Below, in pieces: positions 2,088-17,855 of a DNA stretch of 21,202 bases. Positions within the stretch are counted from its first letter, which is position 1. Each line of letters starts with the position of its first letter. Source of the stretch: a virus; the IMG/VR virus record IMGVR_UViG_3300029319_000575, positions 908 to 22,109 of that record. One strand, 5' to 3'. Position numbers and translations under genes: made by a program. A model generated the notes under the pieces. That model worked only from the letters and a program-made list of their open reading frames with translations, had not been told where the DNA came from and did not search any database.

Positions 2088-2110
2088 AAAAAAGAGGGCA
2101 TTTCACCCTC
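2088..2110 (-). terminator. Intrinsic terminator after the tRNA/tmRNA block
   Basis: On the minus strand a GAGGG/CCCTC stem with a 7-base loop (TGAAATG) is followed directly by six T. It lies just past the 3' end of the tmRNA coding piece and so ends the tRNA-tmRNA transcript before the structural gene. Confidence 0.8.
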
Positions 2111-2365
2111 AAGAGTTGTTGGATTACAAGGACAACTTATCCCCGATCTCTCCTATGCAGTCGCTAGTTCACGAGTGCGAGAGAATGCAACGATTTTATT
2201 CGCTGCGAAGTTAGATGTTTTTGCATCTATGGTTTGCTTATCCAAGCAGGTTTCAGTCACAATCGTAATACCCCGTCAAAACCAGTGCAGCCCCATGAGT
2301 GGAGCTGAGGGGAGTTGAACCCCTGTCCGAAGCTATTCGTAAAGTCACCTATCCCCAGAAGGGGA
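2111..2365 (-). ncRNA. ssrA: Circularly permuted two-piece tmRNA precursor
   Basis: Read on the minus strand, the tRNA-like 3' half comes first: T-arm AGGGG-TTCAACT-CCCCT, acceptor strand CAGCTCC at 2307-2301, discriminator A at 2300. Only five bases (CTCAT) later comes the tmRNA 5' end, GGGGCTG at 2294-2288, followed by a D-loop-like region ending in GACGGGG. GGGGCTG pairs with CAGCTCC over 7 bp, including the G3-U70 pair that identifies alanine tRNA. A tag frame follows at 2203-2153, then a hairpin AGTTGT/ACAACT (2137-2132 with 2119-2114) and the terminator. This is the order expected for permuted genes of the marine cyanobacterial lineage, which make separate acceptor and coding RNAs. CCA is not encoded. 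Outer ends are approximate; a GGGGA (2144-2140) to TCCCC (2365-2361) pairing could join the two pieces. Confidence 0.92.
2153..2203 (-). other. tmRNA tag reading frame
   Basis: From the resume codon GCG (2203-2201) the frame reads ANKIVAFSRTRELATA and stops at TAG (2155-2153). From memory, the Prochlorococcus tag is ANKIVSFSRQTAPVAA, which is also 16 residues and shares ANKIV.FSR, so the frame and resume point are well supported. The C-terminal half differs: it ends in LATA instead of the usual ..VAA or ..LAA. A resume point one codon earlier (GCA) would add one Ala and keep the frame. Confidence 0.88.
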
Positions 2366-2437
2366 TGCCAATAGTCGGATTTGAACCAACGACCTTCTCT
2401 TTACAAAAGAGTTGCTCTACCACTGAGCTATACTGGC
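2366..2437 (-). tRNA. tRNA-Thr(UGU)
   Basis: A 72-base cloverleaf. Acceptor GCCAGTA pairs with TATTGGC, with discriminator A. The D-arm is GCTC/GAGC, the anticodon loop TTTGTAA (anticodon TGT), and the T-arm GTTGG-TTCAAAT-CCGAC. The outermost anticodon-stem pair (27-43) is an A-A mismatch. CCA is not encoded. Its 3' end directly abuts the tmRNA acceptor piece. It reads ACA codons. Confidence 0.95.
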
Positions 2438-2448
2438 AAAAAATTAGG

Positions 2449-2530
2449 TAGGAGTGGCGAGACTTGAACTCGCACGACCTGAAGGTCAACAGATTTTAAG
2501 TCTGGTGTGTCTACCTATTCCACCACACTC
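2449..2530 (-). tRNA. tRNA-Leu(UAA)
   Basis: An 82-base class II tRNA with a long variable arm. Acceptor GGGAGTG pairs with CACTCCT (outer G-U) and the discriminator is A. The anticodon loop CTTAAAA gives anticodon TAA, and the T-arm is GCGAG-TTCAAGT-CTCGC. CCA is not encoded. It reads UUA codons. Confidence 0.95.
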
Positions 2531-2533
2531 CCC

Positions 2534-2609
2534 CACGACTCAGATAGGATTTGAACCTATGACCGACTGCTTAGAAGGCAGTTGCTCTACTCCACTGAGC
2601 TACTGAGCC
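2534..2609 (-). tRNA. tRNA-Arg(UCU)
   Basis: A 76-base cloverleaf. Acceptor GGCTCAG pairs with CTGAGTC, with discriminator G. The anticodon arm is ACTGC-CTTCTAA-GCAGT (anticodon TCT) and the T-arm ATAGG-TTCAAAT-CCTAT. CCA is not encoded. It reads AGA codons. Confidence 0.95.
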
Positions 2610-2613
2610 AAGG

Positions 2614-2685
2614 TAGGACTACCGAGAATTGAACTCGGTTCACTCCGTTATAAGCAGAGGGCATTAACCAATATGCGATAGTCCC
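2614..2685 (-). tRNA. tRNA-Ile(UAU)
   Basis: A 72-base cloverleaf. Acceptor GGGACTA pairs with TAGTCCT, with discriminator A. The D-arm is GCAT/ATGC, the anticodon arm CTCTG-CTTATAA-CGGAG, and the T-arm ACCGAG-TTCAATT-CTCGGT. The loop places TAT at 34-36 after U33, so this is a UAU isoleucine tRNA. Bacteria usually read AUA with a CAU tRNA modified by lysidine. It is first in the tRNA block, 7 bases after the HNH gene. Confidence 0.92.
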
Positions 2686-4877: not shown

Positions 4878-4957
4878 TTTTTAAAAACACCAAATTTTGC
4901 TAGTAAGTATACTGAAAGTATAGTCCAGAAGACTACTTCTAATCCAACATTATTCAT
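4874..4957 (-). CDS. 27-residue single-span membrane peptide
   Basis: A frame of 27 codons (MNNVGLEVVFWTILSVYLLAKFGVFKK). Residues 5-24 are hydrophobic and the end is dibasic, giving one predicted membrane span. It is too short for composition statistics. But its ATG overlaps the stop of ho1 as ATGA, and its own stop overlaps the next ATG as ATGA. Such an exact double overlap would be unlikely by chance. Function unknown. Confidence 0.6.
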   Translation of the reverse strand: MNNVGLEVVFWTILSVYLLAKFGVFKK

Positions 4958-5658
4958 TTTCTAAATCTTTTTGATACAATCATTTCTTGTAAAAAATCTT
5001 GGGCAAAACTATTTAACAACTGCCAAAAAGATTTAGCAGCATTACCTTGAATCTCTTCAAACATATACATGTTTAATCTAAATGCATAGTTTGCTTCTGC
5101 AATCAAAGCATTTGTTTCACTCTCAGTCATTCCTAGGTTATTGAGAATTTCTCTATAATTATTTTTAAAATCTTTTGCATTTGGAATGTCAGGAAACTCA
5201 TAAAATTTCAATCCTTTACCCACTGGTGGTTTAAGAACACGTTCTGTAATTCCTTTTAGAATTTTACCACCTGATAGGTCACCAATATATCTGGTGTAAT
5301 GATGTGCAATAAGAAGATATGGATCTTGCTCTGCTACTTCATGAATCCTATAGAAATAAGTTGCAGCAGCTTCTGAAGGTTCTTGCATATCTCTCCATTC
5401 AGGACCGTAATAATATTCCAGATCCTCTTCAATATACTTCTTTCTTTCTAATTCTGGATAGTATATTGCTTTGACTCTAGGGTCATCAGAATTTTTGATG
5501 TGAAATTCCATCACGTCATAAACGAAATAGAAATTGGTGAGCAACTTACGATACTCTTCTGGATCTAATACCCCTCTAAGAAAGGAAGATACAAACTTAG
5601 TATTTTCTGCTGCTGTGTGAGACTTTTTAGTCCCTTCTTTTAGTGCTGTTGCTAACAT
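4954..5658 (-). CDS. ho1: Heme oxygenase
   Basis: A 234-residue heme oxygenase of normal cyanobacterial length. Proximal haem ligand H14 lies in KKSHTAAENT, and the family signature LIAHHYTRYIGDLSGGK is at 116-132 with the distal-helix glycines G126 and G130-G131 and D127. It opens haem to biliverdin IXalpha, CO and iron using reductant such as ferredoxin, in the cytoplasm; biliverdin is the precursor of phycobilins. No bilin reductase (pebS, pcyA or pebA) is in this window, so the product would feed host reductases or one encoded elsewhere. It starts two bases after the stop of the 103-residue membrane protein gene and overlaps the next small gene as ATGA. Phage ho1 genes are known auxiliary metabolic genes taken from cyanobacterial hosts. 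Confidence 0.96.
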   Translation of the reverse strand: MLATALKEGTKKSHTAAENTKFVSSFLRGVLDPEEYRKLLTNFYFVYDVMEFHIKNSDDPRVKAIYYPELERKKYIEEDLEYYYGPEWRDMQEPSEAAATYFYRIHEVAEQDPYLLIAHHYTRYIGDLSGGKILKGITERVLKPPVGKGLKFYEFPDIPNAKDFKNNYREILNNLGMTESETNALIAEANYAFRLNMYMFEEIQGNAAKSFWQLLNSFAQDFLQEMIVSKRFRK

Positions 5659-7724: not shown

Positions 7725-10568
7725 TTATGGACAATCAATATAAGTTCCAGTTCCAACCTTAGCAGAACCAACTCTAACACGTTCATCAGGGTCTAGACAA
7801 ACAAATGATGGTATAAATCTTGCTCCTATTCCACCACCACCAGAAATAATAATTTCTGGATACTCTTCAAATGTAACAGTTCTATCTTTAATTCTAACAG
7901 CGATTACTTGTCCATCTGTATTGATTTGTGCTTCGGCAATATCTCTTGATTTACCAACAAAAACTGTTGGAACAGAGGTATAACCTCTGCCTGGTGATAT
8001 CATAGTAAATGAATCAATAATACATTCTTTACTAGCAGTAGATGGTGTGTTAATTTTGTATCCAAATCCAGGATTAACAATACGAACTTCCTTAGCAAAT
8101 CCATCATTATCTAATAAAACCTCACCCGTTGCTCCATAACCATTACCCGTAATGAAAACTGCTGGACGTTCTACAAAACGATCACCAGAATCTTGTATAG
8201 GTATTTCAAGAACTCCACCATTATTATTTGTTATAATTTGACCTGCTATTGGCAATCTATTGCTGCTACTACCAGTAGTATCAACTTCTGAAAGATCTTC
8301 AAGTCTATTTCTATCTTCAGCACTTAGACTACTGAGTTCAGAAGATATTATAACACTTGCTTGTGCTCCTGTACCAGGAATTGCAAATACAAATGTTTCT
8401 TCTGACTCAATAAAAGCATCCTTTTTAATACCTATCACAACTTTAGCACTATAACCTTCAAGATCTTCTACAATAAATGTATCTGTTAATGTATTAGACG
8501 TAAAATCACTTGGTGTGATACCAGTTCCAACTAAATTATAACTTAATTTAGTTCCTACAGCAACATTAGTTGTGACAATCGTGAATGTAACAAAATCTCC
8601 TTCTTTAACTGTTGCTTTATCAGCAGTAACTGAGTAGCTAGCAACAGTAGACGGTGCTTCTCCACTCTCAGAGGGATTTACAACATCAACCCAATTATCA
8701 GGATTTTCTACATTAACATTAGGAAAATCTATATTTGATACTTCTTCATCATCATCATCGTCACCAATAACCTGACTTGGATCATCAATACCTTTAACAG
8801 GACTGATAGTACATCTTGCAATATTATTGAAAAAGAATGATGGAAATTCCGTTCCTGCACTAGGTGTATCTGGAACTATCTTTAAAAAGAAATCTTCTTT
8901 AAGTTCTGATATGTTATCTTGGAATGTTTTAACCTCAATCGTTTTAGATGTTTGACCTCCTGTAAATCCTAATACACCACTAACATCTTCATAATCTACA
9001 TCTTTGGTAGCAGTACCATCTGATACACTAAATTCAACACTAGAAGATTCACCAAGATATCCACTTCTCTCAACAGTAAATATTGCAGTTTCTCCTTCCT
9101 TAACCGTAATATCTTTTACGAGATATTTAATTGTTAGATCTGGTTTTTGAATACCACCAACAAATACAATATTAGTATCACGTAATTTAGTTCCCTGATA
9201 CGCATCATCACAACTATAAGTTGCCCAATCTTGACCAGTTCCCCAGTTATTAAGATCCTTTAATAGTCTATCAAGAAAATCCTCTCCATCATCACCAGAA
9301 TTATCAGTACAAATTGTCTTTTTAGGATTACATTTTTCAACAGGTCCATTACATTCTATACCAAGAAGATTTAATACTTTATTGATTGCTTCTCCAATTA
9401 TATTAAGTGGTGCAGCAATTGCACCTAAAATATTTTGTAATGGTCCTAAAATACTTTGAAGAAGATCATTCATCAATGATTGAATTTTATTTAACAATCC
9501 TTGTACAAATTCATCAACTTGACATGCTGCTTGTTTGTAGAGATTAAAAAGGTAACCAAAAATAATATTCTCCAACCATTCAGCAAGACGAGTTGCAAGA
9601 TCTTTCATTGTACATCCAACTTTTTTTAGTTGTTTGTTGATACGCTCTGTAAGTTTATTCAGTCCTCTTCCATTTTTATCAGGTTTTAGAAGTGATTTTG
9701 TAATCCATTTAGATGCTTCTTTAATTTTGTCTAGAACAAATCCTTTTATGTTAGCAATAAATGTTCTCATTATGAGAATTGCTTTGTCAACATATTCTCT
9801 ACCAAGGTCTATCTGATCATATATCCCACCAGACAACTCACCTACAAGATATGTTCCTAACTTACCATCATTTCTTTGAATTTCATATAACATTTCAGAG
9901 AACAATCTGGTATACTTAGATTTTACATCAGTTTTACATGTGCTTGGTCTTTCTACACACACTTTTGTACCAGCAGGATTTACATTACTATTTTCTGCAT
10001 CCTGAGCAGTTTGTAATCCATCTTTGTTACTTTCAATTAATTCATTAGTATCAGTAGTTGTTGTTTCTTCACCAGTTGTTACATGACCTGCATCTGTATT
10101 ATCATATTTAACAGTTTCTTCTGATGACACATCAGCTGGAAGTGTTGTGTATGGAAGAAATGATGTAAATGCTTGACATTCTTTTGTTGGATCTTCTCCC
10201 TCTAATTCTTTGTCAGTTGAGTGAGCAACAGCACCAATAGATCCAATAACACATGGATGTTGTTGTTCATTGTCAAGGAAAAATCCTATTACCCAAGATC
10301 CCTTATTAAGTTTATTTGAAACTGTTGTGCTAGCACCAGGTATATGCGGTGTAGTTACAGGAAATGTAGAAATTGCCCAAGGCAAATCCTCAGTCTTAAC
10401 AGAATTACAATTTTTTGGATGTAATCCTACAATTCTTACTTTACATCTTCCAGACTTTTTAGGGTCTTCAGTAGTCGGTGTCTCAACTTGTCCAATCCAC
10501 CATTTGAATCCATCAGATCCTATTTGGTGAATTGGATAAAGTTCATTTAGGGCAGAATCAATCGTCAT
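7725..10568 (-). CDS. 5: gp5-like baseplate hub protein with Calx-beta domains
   Basis: A 947-residue protein. Residues 21-115 form the gp5/VgrG-type OB-fold (FKWWIGQVE, GRCKVRIVGLHP, DLPWAISTFP, GSWVIGFFLDNEQQHPCVIGSIG). Residues 213-405 are helical and hydrophobic in part. A first Calx-beta-like domain is at about 478-590 (ITVKEGETAIFTVERSG, SDGTATKDVDYEDVSG, ELKEDFFLKI) and a second at 645-740. Residues 800-925 hold GYGA/GFGYK/GRGY repeats. T4 gp5 instead has a lysozyme domain after the OB-fold; none is seen here. It overlaps the upstream 75-residue gene by 11 bases. The beta-helix needle seems to be encoded by the next gene. It would sit at the centre of the baseplate hub, under the gp27-like protein. 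The gene 5 assignment rests on the OB-fold and context. Confidence 0.78.
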   Translation of the reverse strand: MTIDSALNELYPIHQIGSDGFKWWIGQVETPTTEDPKKSGRCKVRIVGLHPKNCNSVKTEDLPWAISTFPVTTPHIPGASTTVSNKLNKGSWVIGFFLDNEQQHPCVIGSIGAVAHSTDKELEGEDPTKECQAFTSFLPYTTLPADVSSEETVKYDNTDAGHVTTGEETTTTDTNELIESNKDGLQTAQDAENSNVNPAGTKVCVERPSTCKTDVKSKYTRLFSEMLYEIQRNDGKLGTYLVGELSGGIYDQIDLGREYVDKAILIMRTFIANIKGFVLDKIKEASKWITKSLLKPDKNGRGLNKLTERINKQLKKVGCTMKDLATRLAEWLENIIFGYLFNLYKQAACQVDEFVQGLLNKIQSLMNDLLQSILGPLQNILGAIAAPLNIIGEAINKVLNLLGIECNGPVEKCNPKKTICTDNSGDDGEDFLDRLLKDLNNWGTGQDWATYSCDDAYQGTKLRDTNIVFVGGIQKPDLTIKYLVKDITVKEGETAIFTVERSGYLGESSSVEFSVSDGTATKDVDYEDVSGVLGFTGGQTSKTIEVKTFQDNISELKEDFFLKIVPDTPSAGTEFPSFFFNNIARCTISPVKGIDDPSQVIGDDDDDEEVSNIDFPNVNVENPDNWVDVVNPSESGEAPSTVASYSVTADKATVKEGDFVTFTIVTTNVAVGTKLSYNLVGTGITPSDFTSNTLTDTFIVEDLEGYSAKVVIGIKKDAFIESEETFVFAIPGTGAQASVIISSELSSLSAEDRNRLEDLSEVDTTGSSSNRLPIAGQIITNNNGGVLEIPIQDSGDRFVERPAVFITGNGYGATGEVLLDNDGFAKEVRIVNPGFGYKINTPSTASKECIIDSFTMISPGRGYTSVPTVFVGKSRDIAEAQINTDGQVIAVRIKDRTVTFEEYPEIIISGGGGIGARFIPSFVCLDPDERVRVGSAKVGTGTYIDCP

Positions 10569-14035: not shown

Positions 14036-16929
14036 TATACTGTATACCTTGCTAAGTTATATGCTTCAAAAAAGTTACCTTCTTTTTGAGTTCCACCAAA
14101 AGAAATTAAATTTTGACTGGTATTAACAGTCTGATTATTAATGATTACAATAGGAAGACGTGATGATGCTTGTCTTTGTGCCATTAATCTTTCACTACTA
14201 CCATTTTCAACCATATTTGTCATAGTTGATGCTAAATTACTATTTGCTTCAATGTTATTTAATGTGCTTGTATCACCACTATTTGTAGGTGGTTTTAATC
14301 TTTGTAAAAGACCATTTGGTGTTGATCCTTCTGCACCGACAACCAAATTAATTAATTTATCAGCATTAGAATATCTCTCAGCACTACCAGGTTCAAAGAA
14401 ATCAACACTAGTATGCCATCCTGACATATTACCTGCATTATTTGGTTGTAATTGTGGTACACCAGGTGTATCTACACTCACAAATCCTACCGAACCAAGA
14501 AGATCACCAGCAGCTACTTGTTGTCCTGTTTTGACAGCAATGCCACCATCAGGAAAATGTGAATAAAGAGAATCAAATTCTTTTCCATTACTAGGATCTA
14601 CACTACGAACAACCACTACATTACCATATCCTTTACCATACAATAACCCAGTCTCAAGAACATAACCAGGAAACAGGTTGTAATTATTTTTATAATCCTG
14701 AAAACTAAAATCAACACCTGGTTCTCCAGATCTATCTCTACCTTGTTGACCATGAAATTCTATTGTTGATGAACCACCTTCACCTCTTTTATTACTAAGA
14801 AAATTAGGAATTGAAACCTCTTTACCAAAAAATGTACCTAGGGTAAATTTACCATCATCACGCTCACCTCCAGTAAATTGCCTTACATAATCTAATGATT
14901 CGTCTATGTATTGCACACCTCTACCAATTTTTTCTGTTGTATTTCCTAAAAATTGTACTACTCGTTCGCCAAGATTTGGCTTATCATCATCGTCATCATC
15001 TGTTGTAGGTTCTTCCTCTTTCTCTGGTTTTTCTCTCTTTCTCAATTCAGCTTCTTTATTTTGACTTGATTGCAAATCACCACCACCTACATTACCAGAT
15101 ACGTCAAAAGTATAATTTGATGCTCCTGTGGGATATGAACCAAGTCCAGCCTCTCCTATTAGTCCTCCAACTTCTGCTCCAAATCCAGTTGCTTCACCAA
15201 ATGCTTTCGTAACACCAAGTATTTCTGATATTGAATCAACACCTCTCAACATATTAGGAGATATATTAGGAGTTCCTCCTTCAAATTGATTTGCATCTAG
15301 TTCTAATGCTTGTATAAAGAAGGAATTTATATTTTCCTCTGATAAGTTAAGTAAGTTTGGTAATATATGGGCATCAAAAGCTTCTCTATCAATATCACGT
15401 AAAATATCAGCCATAACAACTCCCCAACCTCCATAAGGTATGGCACTACCAAATGATAACAACATACCCAAAGGATCACTCCCACCAAAAAGAGGACTTA
15501 TACGACCTAGACCTTCTCCAAAAGCGTATAAAGTTCCTAGACCTGGAGCAAATGTTTTTCCACCACCTGCACCAGCTTTTATCATTAAGTTCTCCATCCC
15601 CTCTTTTCCAAGTTTTTGAGTAAGTTTTCTTTGAATTAGAGGGTTTTTAAAAGCAGCAATTAAACCTTTTGATGTAAGAAGTTCATCTGATAAATTAGTA
15701 GCTACTTTACTTCCTGCTTTTTTTGATGCTGTTGTTGATAATTTTTTAGAAATAGATTTTCTTGCTGATTTACTAATTGCTCTAGGTGCTTTTCCTAAAA
15801 TTTGATCACTAATTTCAGGAAAAAAACTTTTTTGAATATATTGAGAAGTTCTTTTCTGAAAAGCTTTTCTAGATGCTTGACTATTTAAGACTGTTGCTCT
15901 GTTTGCAAAGGCATTAATAATTTTATCTGCAACTAGATCAGCATTAGCAGTTCCAGCTGAATATAACAATCTAATGTAATTAGGAATATCTCCTATAAAT
16001 CTTCCAAATCTGTTACCTTTAACTATAGCACTAGCAGCCCTATATGATTTGAGTGATTGTAATCTTTTTGTAGCACTTTTTGTTCCAAGTTTTCCAACAC
16101 CCCTTACGAACGCTCTTCTTCCTACTTCATCAGCAGTACCTTTTGCAAATACTCTTGCACCTCTACCAATTAATCTTAAACCTTTTTTTCCGAAAATTGA
16201 ACTGGTAATAGCTTTTATTGCTGTGTTTACAGCAGCTTTTACTGCCACTTTTACGGGATTCATGGCAAATCTTGTTACTCTACCAAGAGGTTTTACGTTT
16301 TTACGTAATAATCTTGCTCTTGCTCTTAATCCCTTTGGAACTACCCTTTTGTATAAATTTCTTACAAGCCTTGCGGTCATTCTATTTCCAACTATTCCCT
16401 GAAGTAATGTCCCCACGATACCTATATTACTTCTTCCAGTTGTCTTACCATAAGCAAAAGTTCCTGAAAGATCTAAAGCTCCTTCCAAGTTCATTTCTAA
16501 TTGCTTATATTTGCCTTCTGCTTCAAGTTTTTCTTTTATGGCATTTTTCGTTCCAATAACATTTAATATTTGATCAAATTTGTCTTCTAATATTTGATTT
16601 TGATTAATTAATAGTTTTTGAGTATCCGCTACACCACCAGCTAATGAAGTTACTTTAGATGATATTGCACTATATGTTGCTTGTGCCTTTATTAACTTTC
16701 CATCTATGGGTGTAAAAAAATTTACTATTGTCTCCCTAAGATCCATGTCTTTTACTGGGACAGATTCTGGATCCTCTTTTTTTGCTTTTACTGCTGCTTG
16801 TTTGACATCCTGAGACGCATTTGTTTTTTCTAACTGATTTTTCTCATCAGCATCTTTTATGGCTTCATAAAGTTTACCAGCAATTGCTGTTGTTAAATCT
16901 CCTGAATATGTCTTTTGTAATGATGCCAC
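14035..16929 (-). CDS. Tape-measure-like tail protein with degenerate M23 domain
   Basis: A 964-residue protein starting at GTG 16929, which shares its first base with the stop of the short -1 frame gene. The N-terminus (1-20) is shared with the next gene's product. Residues 75-150 are helical. A long Arg/Lys-rich helical stretch covers 180-400, and a Gly-rich hydrophobic part about 440-530 could insert in a membrane. An M23 (LytM) peptidase-like domain lies at 720-850: GYGNVVVV, LYSHF, VKTGQQVAAGDLLGSVG, SGWHTSVDFFEPG. Of the zinc ligands only D740 remains clearly; E736 replaces the first His and S841 the last. So it may bind rather than cut peptidoglycan. Position after the gp26-like gene and size fit a tape measure. 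Confidence 0.7.
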   Translation of the reverse strand: MASLQKTYSGDLTTAIAGKLYEAIKDADEKNQLEKTNASQDVKQAAVKAKKEDPESVPVKDMDLRETIVNFFTPIDGKLIKAQATYSAISSKVTSLAGGVADTQKLLINQNQILEDKFDQILNVIGTKNAIKEKLEAEGKYKQLEMNLEGALDLSGTFAYGKTTGRSNIGIVGTLLQGIVGNRMTARLVRNLYKRVVPKGLRARARLLRKNVKPLGRVTRFAMNPVKVAVKAAVNTAIKAITSSIFGKKGLRLIGRGARVFAKGTADEVGRRAFVRGVGKLGTKSATKRLQSLKSYRAASAIVKGNRFGRFIGDIPNYIRLLYSAGTANADLVADKIINAFANRATVLNSQASRKAFQKRTSQYIQKSFFPEISDQILGKAPRAISKSARKSISKKLSTTASKKAGSKVATNLSDELLTSKGLIAAFKNPLIQRKLTQKLGKEGMENLMIKAGAGGGKTFAPGLGTLYAFGEGLGRISPLFGGSDPLGMLLSFGSAIPYGGWGVVMADILRDIDREAFDAHILPNLLNLSEENINSFFIQALELDANQFEGGTPNISPNMLRGVDSISEILGVTKAFGEATGFGAEVGGLIGEAGLGSYPTGASNYTFDVSGNVGGGDLQSSQNKEAELRKREKPEKEEEPTTDDDDDDKPNLGERVVQFLGNTTEKIGRGVQYIDESLDYVRQFTGGERDDGKFTLGTFFGKEVSIPNFLSNKRGEGGSSTIEFHGQQGRDRSGEPGVDFSFQDYKNNYNLFPGYVLETGLLYGKGYGNVVVVRSVDPSNGKEFDSLYSHFPDGGIAVKTGQQVAAGDLLGSVGFVSVDTPGVPQLQPNNAGNMSGWHTSVDFFEPGSAERYSNADKLINLVVGAEGSTPNGLLQRLKPPTNSGDTSTLNNIEANSNLASTMTNMVENGSSERLMAQRQASSRLPIVIINNQTVNTSQNLISFGGTQKEGNFFEAYNLARYTV

Positions 16930-17078
16930 TATCGTTTTGCTTTCGCTGCTTCTTGTTTTTGTTTTAGTTCTTCAAGATATTGGACTAAGAAAGTAGTATA
17001 TACTTCCTTTTCCCAAGGTAACATATTTTCAATTTCATTCAAACTGTATTTATGATACTGCATTAAGGCAAAATTCAT
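16929..17078 (-). CDS. Short ORF in the -1 frame after gene 26, probable frameshift extension
   Basis: From ATG 17078 this gives 49 residues (MNFALMQYHKYSLNEIENML...), helical, ending in a Lys/Gln/Ala-rich tail. The same frame is open upstream through 17120 and joins the gp26-like gene at a slippery heptamer. Frameshifting there would add 63 residues (RIALFQNNLEGYFRMNFAL...) to make a fusion of about 299 residues. That is the gpG/gpGT layout of tail assembly chaperones, always placed just before the tape measure, as here. Separate initiation at ATG 17078 is also possible: GGAAGGG lies about ten bases upstream. By position it corresponds to T4 gene 51. The stop TAG shares its G with the next gene's GTG. 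Confidence 0.78.
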   Translation of the reverse strand: MNFALMQYHKYSLNEIENMLPWEKEVYTTFLVQYLEELKQKQEAAKAKR

Positions 17079-17087
17079 TCTAAAGTA

Positions 17088-17126
17088 CCCTTCCAGATTA
17101 TTCTGAAAGAGTGCTATGCGAAAAAA
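17088..17126 (-). promoter_or_regulatory. -1 programmed ribosomal frameshift signal
   Basis: On the minus strand T TTT TTC (17126-17120) is a slippery heptamer in the correct phase with the gene 26 frame (AGT TTT TTC GCA TAG). Eight bases later a stem of 9 bp (CTCTTTCAG, 17111-17103, with CTGGAAGGG, 17096-17088; two G-U pairs) closes a 6-base loop. The zero-frame stop TAG lies in the spacer. The -1 frame runs directly into the short downstream ORF. These are the standard parts of a -1 frameshift site. Confidence 0.75.
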
Positions 17127-17827
17127 CTCTGTAATCCCTCAATCGTGTACGAAGACTCTTTACCAGTCTTAGGATTTACCACTTTAAAGGTGTGACTCAG
17201 TTTAGGAGAAGTTTCATAGAACTTTTGAATTTTCTCAAACTGTTTAGTGGTCAGACTATCAACAAATGTGCGAAATTCCTTCTTTGTAGTGGTGCTTGAG
17301 TCATATACCTCTTCATCATCAAATATCTGATCTATAGAATCTGCAATAAATTCATAAACCTCATCAGTCTTCATTTCTTTCTGTAAAAACTCTCTATCTA
17401 CAAATTCTTTCATACTGGGATATCTCATAACAAGACCAGTTTTATCATCAAACATAATTTTCTTATCATGTCCTTCAGGTTTAAAAATTTCAACTTCATT
17501 AATATTGATATTTGCTTCTACCTGTGTTTCGTTATCATCTTGACATGTAACTGTCAAAGTAATAGTTTCACCAATAGATGCTCCCCTAATCTTCAAAAAC
17601 AAATATTCTAGATCAAAACTAGGCAGAGATTCCACCTTAATCCTTGTAATAACGCAATTTTTGATTAAATCTTTAACTGCACCAATTACCTGTTTTTCGT
17701 CCTTTGACTCAAGTGCCATTAAAAGCACTTTTTCCTCTTTTACAAGAAATGGACGATATTTGATAGTTTTGCCTGTGGAGGGTAATTCAAGTTCATAAGT
17801 AGGATACCCAAGTTTCGGTAATGCCAT
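17114..17827 (-). CDS. 26: gp26-like baseplate hub assembly protein / tail chaperone
   Basis: A 237-residue protein from ATG 17827 (MALPKLGYPTYELELPSTGK). The frame is open further upstream to 17875, but that would cover the late promoter, so the ATG is preferred. It resembles cyanophage proteins annotated as gp26 baseplate hub subunit: an N-terminal beta part with TGKTIKYRPFLVKEEKVLLMAL (about 17-38), then KDLIKNCV, LPSFDLEYLFLKIRGASIGE and an acidic helical C-terminal half. T4 gp26 is needed for hub assembly and is not a major part of the finished baseplate, consistent with a chaperone role. The last codons hold a slippery site leading into the next ORF. It follows a terminator and has its own late box 21 bases upstream. 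Confidence 0.78.
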   Translation of the reverse strand: MALPKLGYPTYELELPSTGKTIKYRPFLVKEEKVLLMALESKDEKQVIGAVKDLIKNCVITRIKVESLPSFDLEYLFLKIRGASIGETITLTVTCQDDNETQVEANININEVEIFKPEGHDKKIMFDDKTGLVMRYPSMKEFVDREFLQKEMKTDEVYEFIADSIDQIFDDEEVYDSSTTTKKEFRTFVDSLTTKQFEKIQKFYETSPKLSHTFKVVNPKTGKESSYTIEGLQSFFA

Positions 17828-17847: not shown

Positions 17848-17855
17848 TATTTATA
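17848..17855 (-). promoter_or_regulatory. T4-type late promoter box for the hub cluster
   Basis: An exact TATAAATA on the minus strand, about 20 bases before ATG 17827 and just after the terminator of the tail-tube gene. It probably drives the whole hub cluster from gene 26 to the spike gene, whose members are spaced or overlapped by 11 bases or less apart from the 35-base gap before ATG 17078. Confidence 0.7.

Follow-up and report, generated by a model that had tools for sequence, protein, structure and literature searches.

The window analysed here is the whole 21,202-nt stretch of viral DNA from IMG/VR record IMGVR_UViG_3300029319_000575 (positions 908 to 22,109), and all coordinates below are window positions. 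On its minus strand, a homologue of gene 26 of T4-like phages ends in the codons AGT TTT TTC GCA TAG, which contain a slippery heptamer in the phase of the gene. The features of the locus are as follows:

18660-17929 (-), tail tube protein gene, directly upstream of gene 26 (PF23849 Phage_TTP_2, E 1.6e-52; PHROG 45, E 4e-36)
17827-17114 (-), gene 26 homologue (237 aa), predicted short zero-frame product, G-like or TAC-N-like (PF12322, PHROG 150, fold model)
17126-17120 (-), slippery heptamer T_TTT_TTC, in phase with gene 26 (sequence and relatives)
17116-17114 (-), zero-frame stop TAG, one codon past the heptamer (same spacing in 211 of 212 related loci)
17112-17102 / 17097-17087 (-), putative stimulatory stem-loop, 11-bp stem and 4-nt loop, 7 nt past the heptamer (folding)
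17120-16929 (-), -1 frame extension, 63 aa after ..QSFF, T-like C-terminal part of a predicted 299-aa gp26-51 fusion (PHROG 634, PHROG 150)
17078-16929 (-), ATG-started 49-aa ORF of the type annotated as gene 51 in relatives, within the -1 frame
16929-14035 (-), gene in the tape measure position, 964 aa, with an M23 peptidase-like segment at about 737-815 (assigned by position and size, not by family match)

The initial annotation had described an in-phase T TTT TTC at the end of a gp26-like gene, an 8-base spacer containing the zero-frame stop, a 9-bp stem-loop and an open -1 frame leading into a 49-residue ORF. The heptamer, its phase and the open frame are as described, and the stop does lie inside the spacer; the spacer measures 7 nt rather than 8, and the stem 11 bp, closed by a 4-nt loop, rather than 9. 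From 17126 the -1 frame runs without a stop as far as the TAG at 16931-16929, giving a junction that reads ..QSFF-RIALFQNNLEGYFRMNF.. and continues into the 49-aa ORF. The GTG start of the next gene, at 16929, overlaps this stop. With 32 in-phase X_XXY_YYZ heptamers among the roughly 6,200 codons of the window, the motif carries little weight by itself; the one at 17126-17120 is the only one placed within a few codons of a gene's end and followed by a conserved -1 continuation.

The order of genes, from tail tube through gene 26 and the extension to the gene in the tape measure position, is that of lambda (tail tube, G, T, tape measure). Gene 26 thus sits between the tail tube gene and a tape measure gene recognized by position and size, and in Cr30 the label tail tape measure protein is given to a gene two ORFs further on. 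As a separate observation, TATAAATA, the T4 late-promoter -10 sequence, occurs at 17848-17855 (-), about 20 bases ahead of the gene 26 ATG.

Conservation was assessed in 212 non-identical related loci, which form 81 clusters below 75% nucleotide identity and span Kyanoviridae, KVP40, Otagovirus, Pootjesviridae, Cr30 and uncultivated phages. All 85 loci of a first round retained the heptamer, its spacing and the -1 extension, and in the full set both an X_XXY_YYZ heptamer in the zero frame and the -1 extension are present in 212 of 212. The heptamer is exactly TTTTTTC, ten bases ahead of the stop, in 209 of these; the variants are TTTTTTT in Cr30 and TTTTTTG in phiM9, and Astolliot carries TTTTTTC one codon nearer the stop. 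The alignment of relatives that had been proposed as a check therefore bears out heptamer, phase and -1 continuity throughout, with a downstream stem in most loci, and such conservation removes chance as the origin of the heptamer.

Constraint on the slip site extends to synonymous positions. Among 78 unique sequences, the two Phe codons of the heptamer show no synonymous changes, while other conserved Phe codons are a mixture of TTT and TTC. Ranked by synonymous entropy, these two come lowest among 77 conserved degenerate codons, and they are the only two without any synonymous change.

Outside this set, the -1 continuation also persists in Ackermannviridae and in Vibrio phage D504, which is related to them, and the heptamer is absent in four of the five checked. 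The four Ackermannviridae-type gp26 homologues lacking it (L092 3308, L093 4245, L095 4209 and L098 4170) end in ..TTTC.. followed by the stop, with a TAATG overlap in three of them. The Ackermannviridae-type homologue in nACB2 (L097) has T_TTT_TTT.

The stem-loop begins 7 nt from the heptamer, within the range of about 5-9 nt expected for a stimulatory structure. Its energy is -13.8 kcal/mol, and folded with its flanks the region reaches -16.9 kcal/mol, a stability matched by 3 of 200 shuffles (dinucleotide z -2.44). Across the relatives, mean folding energy in 50-nt windows is -12.9 kcal/mol at the site, compared with about -4 to -7 elsewhere. Measured against synonymous recodings of the same peptide, the hairpin has a mean z of -2.6 in 190 sequences (-3.3 in the sequence studied here), whereas a control region just downstream gives 0.04. 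The hairpin is thus selected beyond the amino-acid sequence.

The hairpins themselves differ among clades. Stems are about 10 bp in the clade of the window and 10-12 bp in another, at least 15 bp in some S-PM2 relatives and 7 bp in the L243 group, and the hairpin is weak in a few loci. Within clades most stem pairs are invariant and some are compensatory; one pair, for instance, occurs as T-A, A-T and G-C. Because of these differences, no structure common to the pooled alignment emerged from consensus folding, and the analysis relied instead on per-locus folding with synonymous randomization; no Rfam family covers the slip site. We tentatively propose, at somewhat short of even odds, a broader picture in which the slip site has been frozen to the base across Kyanoviridae and several other T4-like lineages while the hairpins of each clade varied in sequence, length and register, as if repeatedly rebuilt, and in which the 'gene 51' annotated in many cyanophage genomes does not stand as a separate gene.

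The two frames could in principle be joined by transcriptional slippage on the run of T residues rather than by ribosomal frameshifting, and a six-T run is indeed found in nearly all loci. However, the run is short, and the heptamer hardly varies in its ribosomal phase, which slippage by RNA polymerase would not need, or in its final C. The retention of a hairpin at ribosomal spacing despite sequence change also argues against slippage, which we regard as very improbable.

The product of the -1 extension matches PHROG 634, 'baseplate hub assembly catalyst' (E 6e-25). When aligned to PHROG 150, which has 282 positions, gp26 covers 5-232 and the extension covers 231-276, so that the two lie end to end along a single family profile. 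The first ATG of the -1 frame moves among loci, from +2 to +95 nt past the stop, while the frame stays constant. In the 120 loci where that ATG is 35 nt or more beyond the stop, the region ahead of it contains no -1 stops (0 of 120), compared with stops in 120 of 120 and 109 of 120 for the other two frames. Variability in this region falls at the third codon position (entropies 0.46, 0.41 and 1.14), and the residues (I/V)ALF(H/Q)NxLEGYY are conserved. By these sequence measures, the -1 region ahead of the first ATG is protein-coding, and the -1 frame is under protein-level selection from the slip site onward.

These data bear directly on a rival reading in which the heptamer is incidental and gene 51 stands alone as a small gene, its translation starting at an ATG of its own (window position 17078) or following reinitiation past the gene 26 stop. 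Relatives are annotated in this way, GGAAGG lies upstream of the window's ATG, and an ATG occurs 5 nt past the stop in about one third of loci and 2 nt past it in five. Nevertheless, the first ATG shifts between loci without loss of the frame or of the conserved residues upstream, the heptamer shows no synonymous variation, the Shine-Dalgarno-like sequence of the window falls inside the 3' arm of the stem, and T4 gp51 itself has a gp26-like domain fused to the extension. We therefore consider a separate gene 51 improbable, if slightly less so than slippage, and suggest that 'gp51' in these phages is probably the C-terminal part of a gp26-51 fusion. Where an ATG lies 5 nt past the stop, reinitiation could additionally yield a separate gp51.

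The gp26 protein of the window belongs to PF12322 T4_baseplate (E 4e-73) and PHROG 150 (E 2e-79). NCBIfam was uninformative, and no solved structure is related to gp26 by sequence. AlphaFold2 models were obtained for gp26 (pLDDT 85.9) and for a T4 gp51-type protein (pLDDT 85.7). The top Foldseek match of the gp26 model in the PDB is the HK97 tail assembly chaperone (TAC) 2OB9, at an E-value of 0.4 that is insignificant alone; the T4 gp51-type model has no chaperone among its PDB matches, and none of those matches reaches a significant level. With VIA-align, residues 1-95 of gp26 align to 3FGX (Z 7.9), HK97 gp13 (2OB9; Z 7.8) and YqbN (3KLU; Z 7.6), followed by 4.7 and 2.9. Although these Z-scores are under 8 and moderate, they stand clear of the rest, and the model is suggestive of a TAC fold in the gp26 N-domain. 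Identity to the three proteins is about 4-12%; gp26 is roughly twice as long and has further domains.

T4 gp26 and gp51 are paralogues, both of them PF12322 proteins, encoded on opposite strands. T4 gp26 ends at the position of the slip site, whereas T4 gp51 carries on through the extension (PHROG 150 over 13-280) and is homologous along its length to the gp26-51 fusion. T4 thus uses two genes for a short form and a C-terminally extended long form with a common N-domain, the long one bearing the same extension, where the phage of the window would make such a pair from one gene with a -1 slip site. In a tree of the N-domain, the loci with the extension in the -1 frame form one group (96). The root and deep branches of this tree are unresolved, and its use for dating the T4 gp26/gp51 duplication was rejected.

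Because T4 gp26 and gp51 match the short and the frameshifted long form, gp26 would act as G and gp26-51 as GT. We conclude, with a probability of about 0.92, that gene 26 of this T4-like marine phage encodes a tail assembly chaperone which a -1 frameshift yields in a short and a long version. The signal and its phase, the conservation, the selection on the hairpin, the homology and the fold resemblance are direct results of computation; from them we infer that ribosomes shift, how often they would do so, and the chaperone action of the products. Most ribosomes would halt at the TAG and release the 237-aa, G-like short form. A minority would pause at the hairpin, allowing the two Phe-tRNAs on T_TTT_TTC to re-pair one base back; translation in the -1 frame would then add 63 residues to give the 299-aa, GT-like fusion. 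By analogy with lambda, the shared N-domain would coat the tape measure protein and the extension would recruit tail tube subunits. In T4, the same pair of proteins comes from the separate genes 26 (short) and 51 (long).

The gpG/gpGT-type frameshift first read from the sequence is thus supported by phase, conservation, gene order, modelled fold and T4 gp51 homology. The proposal that gp26 and a gp51 equivalent form the G and GT pair holds as far as the pair itself is concerned, with gp51 as the C-terminal part of the fusion rather than a separate partner. As in lambda, the slip would occur near the end of the short ORF and the extension ends at the tape measure gene. The slippery heptamer of lambda G/GT differs from T_TTT_TTC, no sequence similarity to lambda is claimed, and most relatives of the phage studied here retain a hairpin past the slip site.

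Vladimirov, Gautam & Davidson (2022, Virology 566:9-15) reportedly dealt with the tail assembly chaperones of T4-like phages. Judging from its title, from papers citing it and from the homology found here, that work appears to name genes 26 and 51. The pairing, which the initial annotation had not known to be described for T4-like gene 26/51, thus seems to have been published in outline in 2022. Of two citing papers, one refers to poly-T frameshift signals in T4-like TAC-N genes (PMC12846349), and the other to some T4-like phages that have a separate short gene and a fused long gene instead (PMC10885494). The latter, on PRFect, makes no mention of cyanophages or baseplate genes. A review describes G/GT frameshifting as widely conserved with T4 as an exception (PMC5009743), and a review of T4 describes gp51 as required yet absent from the particle, and gp26 and gp51 as hub assembly chaperones (PMC3004832).

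The phage of the window, a marine cyanophage, is, on very good support, a further case of an already known chaperone system. The extent of conservation among cyanophages and the turnover of the hairpins may add to what is known; should the 2022 paper have left cyanophages aside, both the family-wide signal and this turnover would be undescribed. These findings would correct the annotation of genes 26 and 51 in many cyanophage genomes, and tie abundant marine T4-like phages to the general rule of tail-chaperone frameshifting that counts T4 as an exception (PMC5009743). Together with T4, these phages form a natural contrast of a protein ratio set by frameshifting with one set by two paralogous genes. 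Additionally, hairpin turnover beside an invariant slip site provides a useful data set on frameshift stimulation.

Several annotations in the relatives and in the window are also worth recording. In S-CAM7 (L087 1501-2208), gene 26 is annotated 46 codons short, with its start at 1639 where the conserved start is 1501, and the S-CAM1 record (L081) is without any gene 51 annotation. The window carries a permuted cyanobacterial-type tmRNA gene at 2095-2382 (-), beside tRNA genes (Rfam RF01851, 117 bits against a gathering threshold of 70), for which ARAGORN gives a tag ending in ..ANKIVAFSRTRELATA. S-CAM1 and S-CAM3 have similar DNA that is left unannotated or labelled hypothetical protein. Four tRNA genes are predicted at 2363-2685 (-), for Thr(tgt), Leu(taa), Arg(tct) and Ile(tat), and the Thr tRNA prediction overlaps that of the tmRNA. 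Also on the minus strand are a heme oxygenase gene at 4954-5658 (-) (PF01126, E 6e-71) and, at 7725-10568 (-), a gene for a Gp5 OB-domain protein with a Calx-beta domain (PF06714, PF03160).
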